Shown here: one piece after another, positions 22,376 to 26,414 of the stretch
Layout: each line of letters begins with the position of its first letter
Position numbering within the stretch: the first letter of the stretch is position 1
Assembly: GCF_914271545.1 (NCBI RefSeq)
Contig: NZ_CAJZAH010000005.1
Location: forward strand, 124,001-188,000
From: Cupriavidus respiraculi
GTDB lineage: Bacteria > Pseudomonadota > Gammaproteobacteria > Burkholderiales > Burkholderiaceae
Direction of reading: 5' to 3'
Length of the DNA stretch: 64,000 bases
Notes under the pieces: generated by a model
What the model saw: the letters and a program-made list of their open reading frames with translations, nothing else
What the model was told of the DNA's origin: nothing
Databases searched by the model: none
Made by a program: the position numbers and the translations under genes

Positions 22376-24964
22376 ATGCGTCTAGACAAACTGACGACCC
22401 GTTTCCAGGAAGCGCTGGCCGATGCCCAGACCCTGGCGATCGGTCACGACAACCAGTACATCGAACCCCAACACGTCGTGCGCGCGCTGCTGGCGCAGAA
22501 CGACGGCTCCGCGCGCGCGCTGCTGTCCCGCGCCGGCGTCAACATCAACGGGCTCACGGCCGCGCTCGATGCGGCGATCGACCGCCTGCCGCAGGTGCAG
22601 GGCAACAGCGAGGTGCAGGTGGGCCGCGATCTCGCCGCCCTGTTCAATGCCACCGAGAAGGAAGCGATCAAGCGCGGCGACCAGTTCATCGCCAGCGAGC
22701 TGTTCCTGCTGGCCGTGTCCGACGACAAGAACGAGACCGGCCGCATCGCCCGCGAGAACGGCATGTCGCGCAAGTCGCTGGAGGCCGCCATCGAGGCGGT
22801 GCGCGGCGGCGATGCCGTCAACAGCGCGGACGCCGAATCGCAGCGCGAGGCCCTGAAGAAGTACACCATCGACCTGACCGAGCGCGCCCGCATCGGCAAG
22901 CTCGATCCGGTGATCGGCCGCGACGACGAGATCCGCCGCGCGATCCAGATCCTGCAGCGCCGCACCAAGAACAACCCCGTGCTGATCGGCGAGCCCGGCG
23001 TGGGCAAGACCGCCATCGTCGAAGGGCTGGCCCAGCGCATCGTCAACGGCGAGGTGCCGGAGAGCCTGAAGAACAAGCGCGTGCTGGTGCTCGACATGGC
23101 GGGCCTGCTGGCCGGCGCCAAGTACCGCGGCGAGTTCGAGGAGCGGCTCAAGGCCGTGCTGTCGGATGTCGCCAAGGACGAGGGCCAGACCATCGTCTTC
23201 ATCGACGAGATCCACACCATGGTCGGCGCCGGCAAGGCCGAGGGCGCCATCGACGCGGGCAACATGCTCAAGCCCGCGCTGGCACGCGGCGAGCTGCACT
23301 GCATCGGCGCGACCACCCTGGACGAGTACCGCAAGTACATCGAGAAGGACGCCGCGCTGGAGCGCCGCTTCCAGAAGGTGCTGGTGGACGAGCCCTCGGT
23401 GGAGGCGACCATCGCCATCCTGCGCGGCTTGCAGGAGAAGTACGAACTGCACCACGGCGTGGAGATCACCGACCCGGCCATCGTCGCCGCGGCGGAGCTG
23501 TCGCACCGCTATATCACCGACCGCTTCCTGCCGGACAAGGCCATCGACCTGATCGACGAGGCCGCCGCGCGCATCAAGATGGAAATCGACTCCAAGCCGG
23601 AGTCGATGGACAAGCTCGAGCGCCGCACCATCCAGCTCAAGATCGAACGCGAGGCGGTCAAGAAGGAAACCGACGAGGCGTCGCGCAAGCGGCTGGAGCT
23701 GATCGAGCAGGAAATCACCCGGCTCGAGAAGGAATACGCCGACCTGGACGAGATCTGGAAGGCCGAGAAGGGCGCGGCCCAGGGCGCCGCCACGCTGAAG
23801 GAAGAGATCGACAAGATCAAGCTGGAGATCGCGCGCCTGCAACGCGAGGGCAAGCTCGACAAGGTGGCGGAGCTGCAGTACGGCAAGCTGCCGAACCTGG
23901 AGGGCAAGCTCAAGGCCGCGACGGATGCGGAGACCGCCGAGCAGAAGCAGCCCAACAAGCTGCTGCGCACGCAGGTGGGCGCCGAGGAAATCGCCGAGGT
24001 GGTCAGCCGCGCGACCGGCATCCCGGTCTCGAAGATGATGCAGGGCGAGCGCGAGAAGCTGATCCAGATGGAGGACTATCTGCATCGCCGCGTGGTGGGC
24101 CAGGACGAGGCCGTGCGGCTGGTGTCCGACGCCATCCGCCGCTCCCGCGCGGGTCTCGCGGACGAGAACCGGCCCTATGGCTCGTTCCTGTTCCTCGGGC
24201 CGACCGGCGTGGGCAAGACCGAGCTGTGCAAGGCGCTGGCCGAGTTCCTGTTCGACTCGCAGGACCACCTGATCCGCATCGACATGAGCGAATTCATGGA
24301 GAAGCACAGCGTGTCGCGCCTGATCGGCGCGCCGCCGGGATACGTGGGCTACGAGGAGGGCGGCTACCTGACCGAGGCGGTGCGGCGCAAGCCGTATAGC
24401 GTGGTGCTGCTCGACGAGGTCGAGAAGGCCCACCCCGATGTGTTCAACGTGCTGCTGCAGGTGCTGGACGACGGCCGCCTGACCGATGGCCAGGGCCGTA
24501 CCGTGGACTTCAAGAACACGGTGATCGTAATGACGTCGAACCTCGGTTCGCACATCATCCAGTCCATGTCCGGCGAGCCGCACGAGGCCGTGAAGGGTGC
24601 CGTGTGGCAGGAGGTGAAGACGCATTTCCGGCCCGAGTTCCTGAACCGGATCGACGAGGTGGTGGTGTTCCACGCGCTCGACCAGAAGCATATCGAGTCG
24701 ATCGCCCGCATCCAGCTGCAGCGGCTGCAGGCACGGCTGGCGCGCATGGACATGACGCTGGAGGTCAGCGAAGCGGCGCTCGAGCGCATCGCCAGCGCGG
24801 GCTACGACCCGGTGTTCGGCGCGCGGCCGCTCAAGCGCGCCATCCAGCAGAACATCGAGAATCCGGTGGCGCGCGCCATCCTCGAAGGCCGCTTCGCCGC
24901 GAAGGACGTGGTGCCGGTGGATTACCGGAACGGGGAGTTCGCGTTCGGGGAGGCCGCGCAGTAA
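22376..24964 (+). CDS. clpB: ATP-dependent disaggregase ClpB
   Basis: An 862-residue Hsp100 chaperone that with DnaK rescues aggregated proteins. Domains in order: Clp N-domain repeats (1-150), AAA1 with Walker A GEPGVGKT (205-212) and VFIDEIHT, coiled-coil middle domain (about 400-540, with [19 protein letters not shown]), AAA2 with GPTGVGKT (about 610) and [11 protein letters not shown], and the C-terminal D2 small domain. Length equals the family norm. The ATG at 22376 follows a GAGAGAGA purine stretch. An internal GTG/ATG for the shorter ClpB form was not examined in depth. Confidence 0.97.
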
Positions 24965-25066
24965 GGCCGGGGGGACGGTGACGGCCGGGCCGCCGCGATG
25001 GGGTCCAAGCGCCGGGCCGCCGGCTCGGTCGTCGCGACGCAGGCAACGGCACCAATACGCCCCGCC

Positions 25067-25108
25067 TTGACGCAAGTCAAAACGAACCGGCGCCCCACGC
25101 CCTAACAT
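25067..25108 (+). promoter_or_regulatory. FNR/Anr-type box with -10 element
   Basis: TTGAC-GCAA-GTCAA (25067-25080) is a perfect inverted repeat of the CRP/FNR-family type (FNR consensus TTGAT-N4-ATCAA). A -10-like TAACAT lies at 25103-25108, predicting a start near 25115. The palindrome centre is then at -41.5, the exact position of class II FNR activation. Confidence 0.6.
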
Positions 25109-25114
25109 GACCCT

Positions 25115-25208
25115 GTCATGGAGATGCGGGGGCGCTCTCCATGGCGTCTACCCGTTTCCAGCCAGGAAACTTGGCCCGCGGCATTTCTGATGCCGCGGGC
25201 TTTTTCTT
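25115..25208 (+). ncRNA. Candidate FNR-controlled small RNA
   Basis: About 95 nt with three hairpins: CATGGAGA/TCTCCATG (25117-25124, 25136-25143) with an 11-nt G-rich loop; GTTTCC/GGAAAC (25154-25170); and a Rho-independent terminator GCCCGCGGCA/TGCCGCGGGC (25174-25200) followed by TTTTTCTTTT. The single-stranded segment between the first two hairpins (around 25144-25153) could be a pairing seed. It lies 150 bp after the clpB stop and about 190 bp before the sulfate-binding protein gene. It could alternatively be only a distal clpB terminator, but that would not explain the promoter-like element in front. Confidence 0.55.
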
Positions 25209-25264
25209 TTGTGGGTGCCCATCCGAGGGGCCCACCGCGACTGCCGTCCCCGGATATGCCGATA

Positions 25265-25288
25265 TTTCCGCAAGTTCTTATGCGGAAA
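25265..25288 (+). promoter_or_regulatory. Inverted repeat upstream of the sulfate-binding protein gene
   Basis: TTTCCGCA (25265-25272) and TGCGGAAA (25281-25288) form a perfect 8-bp inverted repeat spaced by an AT-rich 8 nt. It lies about 110-140 bp before the gene, in the zone expected for an activator. CysB encoded at the end of the cluster is the obvious candidate, but CysB sites have weak consensus, so this is a guess. It could also act as an RNA hairpin. Confidence 0.35.
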
Positions 25289-25403
25289 ACGGGCATGGAT
25301 GGGCAAAACCATTCGTTCCGTTTGGATACGCGCATCGATAGCCTTCGATGACGGCGCAATTCACAAGCGCCATTTCGACGATATTCCGACGGGAGCAATG
25401 ACG

Positions 25404-26414
25404 ATGATGCGCAAGCTGGCGATTGGCCTGGCCGTTCTGGCCGCAACGGGAGCGAGCCCGGCCGTATGGGCGGACACCACGCTGCTGAACGTGTCCTACG
25501 ACCCCACGCGCGAGTTGTATGTCGACGTGAACGCCGCCTTCGCCAAGGCATGGAAGGCGGCTGGCGGCGACAACGTGACGATCCGGCAGTCGCATGGCGG
25601 CTCGGGCAAGCAGGCGCGCTCGGTCATCGACGGGCTGCAGGCCGATGTGGTCACCCTGGCCCTGGGCTACGACATCGACGCGATCGCGCAGAAGGGGCTG
25701 CTCAACGCCGACTGGCAGAAGCGCCTGCCGCACAACGCGTCGCCCTATACCTCGACCATCGTGTTCCTGGTGCGCAAGGGCAATCCCAAGGGCATCAAGG
25801 ACTGGAACGACCTCGCGCGCCAGGGCGTGCAGGTCATCACGCCGAACCCGAAGACCTCCGGCGGTGCGCGTTGGAACTACCTGGCGGCATGGGGCTATGC
25901 GCTGCGCCAGCCGGGCGGCAGCGAGGCCAAGGCGAAGGACTTCGTCGGCCAGGTGCTGAAGAACGTGCCGGTGCTCGATTCCGGCGCGCGCGGCGCGACC
26001 ACGACCTTTGTCGAGCGGGGCATCGGGGACGTGCTGGTGGCCTGGGAGAACGAGGCCATCCTGGCCGTCAAGGAACTGGGCCCGGACAAGTTCGACATCG
26101 TGGTGCCCTCGATCTCCATCCTGGCCGAGCCGCCGGTCGCCGTGGTCGACAAGGTGGTGGACAAGAAAGGCACGCGCAAGGCCGCGGAGGCCTATCTCAA
26201 ATTCCTGTACTCGGACGAAGGCCAGGAAATCGCCGCGAAGAACTACTACCGCCCGATCTCGGAAAAGATCGCGGCCAAGTACGCCTCGGCCTTCCCCAAG
26301 GTGCGGCTGTTCACCATCGACGAAGCGTTCGGCGGCTGGCAGAAGGCGCAGGTCGCGCATTTCGCCGATGGCGGCACCTTCGACCAGATCTACCAGCCCG
26401 GCCGCAGCAAGTGA
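25404..26414 (+). CDS. sbp: Periplasmic sulfate-binding protein of the sulfate ABC importer
   Basis: A solute-binding protein of about 336 residues with a Sec signal peptide ([20 protein letters not shown], cleaved before [16 protein letters not shown]). The mature N-terminus and the [32 protein letters not shown] and WENEAILA segments are typical of Sbp/CysP. It captures sulfate (and perhaps thiosulfate) for CysTWA. Three ATGs are possible (25398, 25404, 25407); 25404 has the best spacing (8 nt) to GGGAG. It is the first gene of the sulfate cluster. Confidence 0.92.

Follow-up and report, generated by a model that had tools for sequence, protein, structure and literature searches.

The window, that is, the whole 64,000-nucleotide stretch of Cupriavidus respiraculi DNA analysed here, carries on its forward strand clpB and, downstream of it, sbp, which is followed further downstream by genes encoding CysT and CysW. 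The space between clpB and sbp holds an FNR-type box, a −10 element and a region predicted to be transcribed into a small RNA with three hairpins (Table 1). The first-pass annotation had claimed an FNR-type box at −41.5, a TAACAT −10 element and an RNA of about 95 nt with three hairpins, the last being a terminator followed by a T-run. The box and the −10 element were read directly in the sequence, and the hairpins with the terminator were recovered by folding 25115–25206, which confirms the observation; the interpretation as an FNR-activated small RNA is supported.

Table 1. Features of the clpB–sbp region, with positions counted from the first letter of the window.
Feature	Position	Strand	Remarks
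clpB, upstream neighbour	22376..24964	+	NCBIfam TIGR03346, 1419 bits; start codon chosen by analyst
FNR-type box TTGACGCAAGTCAA	25067..25080	+	centre (25073.5) 41.5 bp before the predicted start 25115
−10 element TAACAT	25103..25108	+	TAnnAT across the genus
Predicted small RNA, sibling type A	25115..25208	+	about 94 nt; 3′ end within T-run 25201–25210
5′ hairpin	25115..25145	+	from fold and alignments
GCGGGGGCGC top of 5′ hairpin	25126..25135	+	exposed GGGG loop; nearly invariant among siblings
Linker GUCUACCC	25146..25153	+	predicted single-stranded; invariant in 16/16 distinct orthologues, other siblings differ
Middle hairpin GUUUCC-loop-GGAAAC	25154..25170	+	stem invariant in 16/16, loop variable
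Rho-independent terminator stem-loop	25173..25201	+	13 pairs, then T-run 25201–25210
sbp (sulfate ABC binding protein), downstream neighbour	25398..26414	+	NCBIfam NF008022, 550 bits; start codon chosen by analyst

The start at 25115 was placed by inference, not from mapped 5′ ends, and the promoter, the structure and the end of the RNA are computational predictions as well. With this start, the locus combines an FNR-type palindrome near −41.5 with a −10 element; a search of 24500–25700 for sigma-70 promoters gave none that has a −35 hexamer, as expected of an activator-dependent promoter. The motif TTGAYNNNNRTCAA occurs once in the 64 kb, at the box itself, compared to 0.08 occurrences expected from shuffled sequences, 8 out of 100 of which contained at least one. 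The predicted fold of 25115–25206 consists of three separate hairpins with −54.4 kcal/mol (z = −6.4), and none of 200 dinucleotide shuffles was as good; what is predicted is a short, structured RNA that ends at a Rho-independent terminator of its own. Since two terminator-like sites were found in 24500–25700, against a mean of 1.0 in shuffles, the terminator alone would be weak evidence.

Conservation and structure at the locus

In 30 orthologues aligned at +1, which come from related species and are not independent samples, the mean information is 0.27 bits at −150 to −60 and 0.64 bits at −35 to −14, with peaks at −49 to −46, −39 to −36 and −13 to −8, the last one reading TAnnAT; a single conserved C is present at −2 in 29 of the 30 sequences. 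From +1 to +34, where the profiled stretch ends, each position carries 1.4–2.0 bits. Conservation sets in at the predicted +1, and upstream of it concerns mainly the box and the −10 element at a fixed spacing. An exact TTGAY-N4-RTCAA is found at −48/−49 in 28 of the 30 fetched orthologues, the other two being one base off, and the strict box is present in 34 of the 36 named loci with enough sequence (out of 38, from organisms that overlap with the set of 30); the non-strict boxes read CTGAC-N4-ATCAA. The inner letters of the box vary across orthologues and the dyad is kept. In most relatives its centre lies one base further out, at −42.5; the position −41.5 was observed in the window and, among the other loci examined, at L027, L074 and L085.

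The first-pass annotation had set a lack of conservation of palindrome and stems in relatives as a possible refutation, and had proposed to look for covariation in the three stems. The palindrome and the stems are conserved, the latter with few unpaired cells, and covariation was found for part of the structure. The consensus of 16 distinct orthologues has the three stems, with 7 of 31 pairs changed on both sides, all of them in the terminator; broken cells affect three terminator pairs and a single pair of the 5′ stem. Within the 5′ stem, G-U, G-C and A-U are all found at one pair, which speaks for an RNA hairpin rather than a DNA operator. No covariation was seen in hairpin 2 across the 16 orthologues, and its invariant stem with a variable loop suggests that the sequence of this hairpin itself may matter. 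For hairpin 1, the support across siblings (see below) is modest: 89.3% of the cells are paired, versus 26.5–50.2% for slid partners, and among 500 shuffles, 3 reached the covariation score, 8 the cells changed on both sides, 62 the pairs changed on both sides, 241 the percentage paired and 430 the further pair types.

At 23 of the named loci (among L054–L091) clpB was located upstream of the RNA, ending 118 to 6155 bp before it, and from this variation genes were probably inserted or lost in between more than once. On the other side, sbp is on the same strand as the RNA in all 28 named loci where it was seen, at 261–642 bp in 26 of them and at 2257 and 6355 bp in two; at the remaining loci the available sequence ended before a neighbour was reached or gave no match. 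Because both distances vary, we consider the RNA a unit of its own, usually located upstream of sbp, and read-through from clpB as the only source of the transcript is unlikely.

Sibling RNAs and their distribution

The covariance model R1 also matched further places within the same genomes, and the RNA turned out to have sibling copies on chromosomes and megaplasmids, which had been missed in the first-pass annotation. The siblings share the box, the spacing, the nearly invariant GCGGGGGCGC hairpin top and the terminator, and differ in the middle hairpin, which in types B and C is replaced by an unrelated one. In an alignment of 25 rows (A2), comprising types A, B, C and plasmid copies, GCGGGGGCG is found in 25/25 and the last C of the hairpin top in 24/25, and conspicuous conservation is limited to the box, the hairpin and a weak −10. 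Among 20 sibling loci, 13 have TTGA-N6-TCAA at −48 to −50, and the other seven, of type C, have TTAAY-N4-GTCAA, one base off the consensus; a further sibling, L131, carries the box. Three hairpins with unrelated middles were predicted in all 17 sequences folded (the window and 16 of 21 fetched sibling loci), with z values of −3.1 to −7.3 against simple letter shuffles. That this layout is kept despite unrelated middles is stronger support for the structure than the covariation. Pairing of the GGGG loop with the C-rich linker into a pseudoknot was dropped as an idea, since it is not possible in all siblings.

In complete assemblies, type B copies are on the largest contig; at the loci examined their neighbour is a gene that by eye encodes a GntR-type regulator or is of the SDR type. 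Type C copies occupy a different large contig, which from its size would be the second chromosome, and in one case (L103) follow a gene that by eye is HU-like. Further sibling copies are on a 361-kb contig. In the genome of the window, the pattern, R2 and genus searches (R2 is a model of the box and the 5′ hairpin) gave a single copy, the one at 25115. Plasmid pHG1 of C. necator H16 carries a type A copy at 222785–222867, flanked by phaP2 and hmpA, and nap genes are no more than 8 kb away; its box, TTGACTTTGGTCAA, is at −49, and the gene table, known to be incomplete, has no feature beneath it. Plasmid I of C. taiwanensis STM 8555 carries two copies, one of them with hyp genes within 8 kb. Phage records gave no match, and plasmid records gave none for the type C query.

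Two observations on these plasmids are worth reporting. At 250128–250212 (+) of pHG1, with a DUF2249 gene on one side, an Rrf2 regulator on the other and nrdD nearby, a weak R2 match of 33 bits (L199) has a TTGAC-CACG-GACAA box, the GCGGGGGCGC hairpin top and a terminator, and is possibly a diverged sibling; an R2 match at G286:C1:1864320 scores similarly. In the plasmid siblings L109, L110 (G131 contig 3) and L198 the linker is CAACUC or UAACUC, versus CUACCC in chromosomal copies, with CGUUUCC being kept; L197 was assigned the linker of L109 from the identity of L109 to its record. To judge from these letters, plasmid siblings with an altered linker may target other RNAs.

In the samples of the family and the order, the RNA was found in the genus only. 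A DNA search found the locus in 40 of 299 genomes of the family, and these 40 are all the congeners sampled; in a set of 60 genus genomes, the family of RNAs is present in 59, the one miss being a genome 54% complete, with 145 matches in total; 7 of the genomes have a single copy and 52 have at least two. A pattern search of named genomes gave 38 places, 36 of them titled Cupriavidus and the remaining two 'Ralstonia sp. 25mfcol4.1' and 'Burkholderiaceae bacterium 16'. The box followed by 40–54 bases and GCGGGGGCGC occurs in 40/40 congeners, two of which (G152 and G243) have it through a sibling copy only, versus 3/259 other genomes of the family; the reversed control was seen in a single genome out of 299, a non-congener, and one congener match (G152 C10) is spurious by sequence. 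Model R2 found 94 copies of at least 60 bits in the 40 congeners and nothing above 26.3 bits in the 259 family genomes outside the genus, with weak matches (E up to 0.01) in 17 of them. In a sample of the order (399 genomes, 158 genera) only three genomes passed 1e-4, all congeners. Searches of more than 40 genomes were run with stricter filters, at the cost of some weak matches, so that a distant relative may exist elsewhere. Outside the genus, 72 of the 259 genomes were matched by R1 with E values up to 0.01, and 18 of these loci (L112–L129), which have neither the box nor GCGGGGGCGC, were read as terminator look-alikes and rejected. The RNA is conserved within Cupriavidus and was not found in the other genera sampled in the family and the order.

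Regulation, function and alternative explanations

Fnr is encoded in the same genome (NF008365, 248.9 bits with a cut-off of 228), has a CX2CX5C motif, and its gene adjoins the cco cluster. The box pattern was found at 15 sites of the genome, versus 7 for the reversed control; two of the 15 precede ccoN and the gene of a copper P-type ATPase, and at least two (C6:80200 and C9:51683) are inside long open frames and may be due to chance. Given the 7 control sites and these positions within frames, the motif alone is weak evidence. The genome-wide sites together with Fnr are compatible with an FNR regulon, and do not amount to proof of Fnr binding at 25067. Eight of the 15 sites fall within 22 kb (G000:C1:483751-505824; L170, L171) close to a second FNR-like regulator, in a stretch whose genes resemble, by eye, those of universal stress proteins, of Hsp20 and of a zinc alcohol dehydrogenase.

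The reading that we favour, with a probability of about 0.8, is that the locus encodes, as a gene of its own, a small RNA of about 94 nt, expressed from an Fnr-activated class II promoter and belonging to a Cupriavidus-specific family of siblings. It draws on the sequence, the conservation, the spacing, the sibling copies and the Fnr gene, all of which were observed. At low oxygen, the iron-sulfur regulator Fnr would bind the palindrome at −41.5/−42.5 and activate RNA polymerase, in the class II manner, at a promoter with a −10 and without a −35, and the transcript would stop at its own terminator. The siblings would share this switch and the same top of the 5′ hairpin, GCG-GGGG-CGC, and differ in their middle parts. 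The RNAs would most likely act in trans by base pairing with mRNAs, with Hfq or ProQ probably bound at the U-rich tail; the shared hairpin might protect the 5′ end or be a common contact, and the variable middle might give each sibling its own targets. In this way we infer that oxygen is linked to post-transcriptional control through the RNA.

The linker GUCUACCC is a candidate pairing site. Among the matches listed for 21 genomes, ACGGGTAGA-N0-28-ATG was not enriched over the reversed control, and neither this pattern nor the next yielded a usable target candidate. Ten ACGGGTAGA places that were inspected fall within stretches that are probably coding; judged by third-position G+C, nine are antisense to the frame and one is unclear. 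Also among the matches listed, GCGCCCCCGC-N0-28-ATG exceeded the reversed control in all 21 genomes; we draw nothing from this excess, because the reversed control is poor for a G+C-rich coding genome and the hits include the RNA genes themselves.

Several other explanations were weighed. The least improbable, though we hold it rather unlikely, is that another protein of the CRP/FNR family, either an NO sensor of the Dnr/NnrR type or the second Fnr-like protein, acts instead of Fnr or with it, and that the RNA reports NO or nitrate respiration. The half-sites of Dnr/NnrR-type and FNR boxes overlap, HTH_Crp_2 was found above its cut-off at six places in the genome, one of which is that of the second FNR-like protein, with a similar Cys pattern and near the usp-like cluster (by eye), and the pHG1 copy lies beside hmpA and near nap; on the other hand, the FNR palindrome is kept in nearly all relatives examined, the same type of box precedes the cco genes, and an Fnr gene is present. 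This alternative is compatible with the favoured reading, so their odds overlap, and the odds of all readings together do not sum to one. The constant orientation of sbp and its distance of a few hundred bp at 26 of 28 loci would also fit a cis-acting leader or attenuator of the sulfate operon; we regard this as improbable, as sbp is 2.3 and 6.4 kb away at two loci, the sibling loci examined adjoin unrelated genes, and a strong terminator is predicted about 190 nt before sbp.

Even less probable is a messenger role, for a nearly leaderless mini-peptide that begins with AUG at +4, either as the only function or as part of a dual-function RNA. A frame of eight residues with the stop at the same place is present in 6 of 12 type A, B and plasmid members (L109, L092, L094, L107, L108, L131) and, by reading, in most chromosomal type A copies, and gives MEMRGRSS in the plasmid copy L109 and MKTRGRTS or MKLRGRTS in several type B siblings. 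However, the frame stays open beyond this point in five members (the window, L110, L097, L105 and L106), stops after one codon in L096, and is not the one in which type C members begin; in the A2 alignment, by reading, nearly every variable codon changes the amino acid while CGG GGG CGC hardly varies, and the inverted repeat by itself accounts for the stop codon. That there is no separate RNA, and that a clpB terminator stands beside a chance palindrome, can practically be discarded: clpB does end 150 nt upstream in the window, but the conservation from +1, the fixed spacing of the box and the sibling copies at other loci contradict it.

Beyond the independent Fnr-activated RNA gene, a wider proposal is tentative, and we hold it possible rather than likely: a genus-wide, oxygen-switched system of several RNAs, in which siblings with the G-rich top were duplicated over both chromosomes and conjugative megaplasmids (pHG1, STM 8555 plasmid I), plasmids with anaerobic or hydrogen metabolism would bring their own FNR-driven RNA, and the loop would be a common contact with C-rich RNA or with a protein. 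We know of no such role of a loop in other FNR-type small RNAs.

Relation to known small RNAs

At the Rfam gathering score the window matched only a tRNA and none of the other families, including enteric FnrS, and a permissive scan of 25040–25230 gave sub-threshold matches only, none to an FnrS-type family. The highest-scoring of these was the trpB motif (32.1 of 59 bits). Two others were set aside as far below their gathering scores: suhB/MmgR, which reached 27.9 out of 41 bits with E = 0.00034 over 191 bases, and anti-hemB, which reached 22.5 out of 49.5 bits. With no match at this threshold, the gonococcal and enteric FnrS are, by the tests made, analogues and not homologues of the Cupriavidus RNA.

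A description of the RNA was not found in the top-ranked matches of the open-access literature, taken as main texts without supplements. It may be among the 35 likely sRNA starts given for C. metallidurans by tagRNA-seq in PMC7563307; a term search of the main text of PMC5934665 gave no hit for sRNA or TTGA. The RNA appears to represent an undescribed family. The genus includes C. necator H16, a main organism for growth on hydrogen and for the production of bioplastics when oxygen is limiting. If our reading is true, an FNR-driven family of small RNAs adds a post-transcriptional layer to its oxygen response, and the siblings offer a directly testable system, as for the pHG1 copy with its neighbours phaP2, hmpA and nap. 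The design of siblings with one kept loop raises the question of the binding partner of this loop.

Among RNAs with related control, AniS is the meningococcal counterpart of the gonococcal RNA named fnrS, and PhrS of Pseudomonas aeruginosa is an ANR-dependent small RNA. PhrS has FNR/ANR-type activation in common with the Cupriavidus RNA, and belongs to another lineage. Qrr is a known set of sibling small RNAs. NgncR_162/163 of Neisseria (PMC13104608) are likewise siblings. In both sets several similar RNAs occur per genome, as in Cupriavidus, where in contrast the shared part consists of the GCGGGGGCGC hairpin top and the FNR-type box. The gonococcal fnrS RNA is induced anaerobically and in the passages of PMC3032703 has, like the predicted Cupriavidus RNA, a class II FNR site, a 5′ stem-loop and a Rho-independent terminator; a translational fusion at its +9 gave no product, and its middle is described as unstructured, whereas the Cupriavidus RNA has a predicted middle hairpin. 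The same passages place the FNR site of enteric FnrS at −41.5, a class II position which it has in common with the Cupriavidus RNA. In contrast to both, the Cupriavidus RNA has several siblings in most genomes, with a G-rich hairpin top that is kept in all types.
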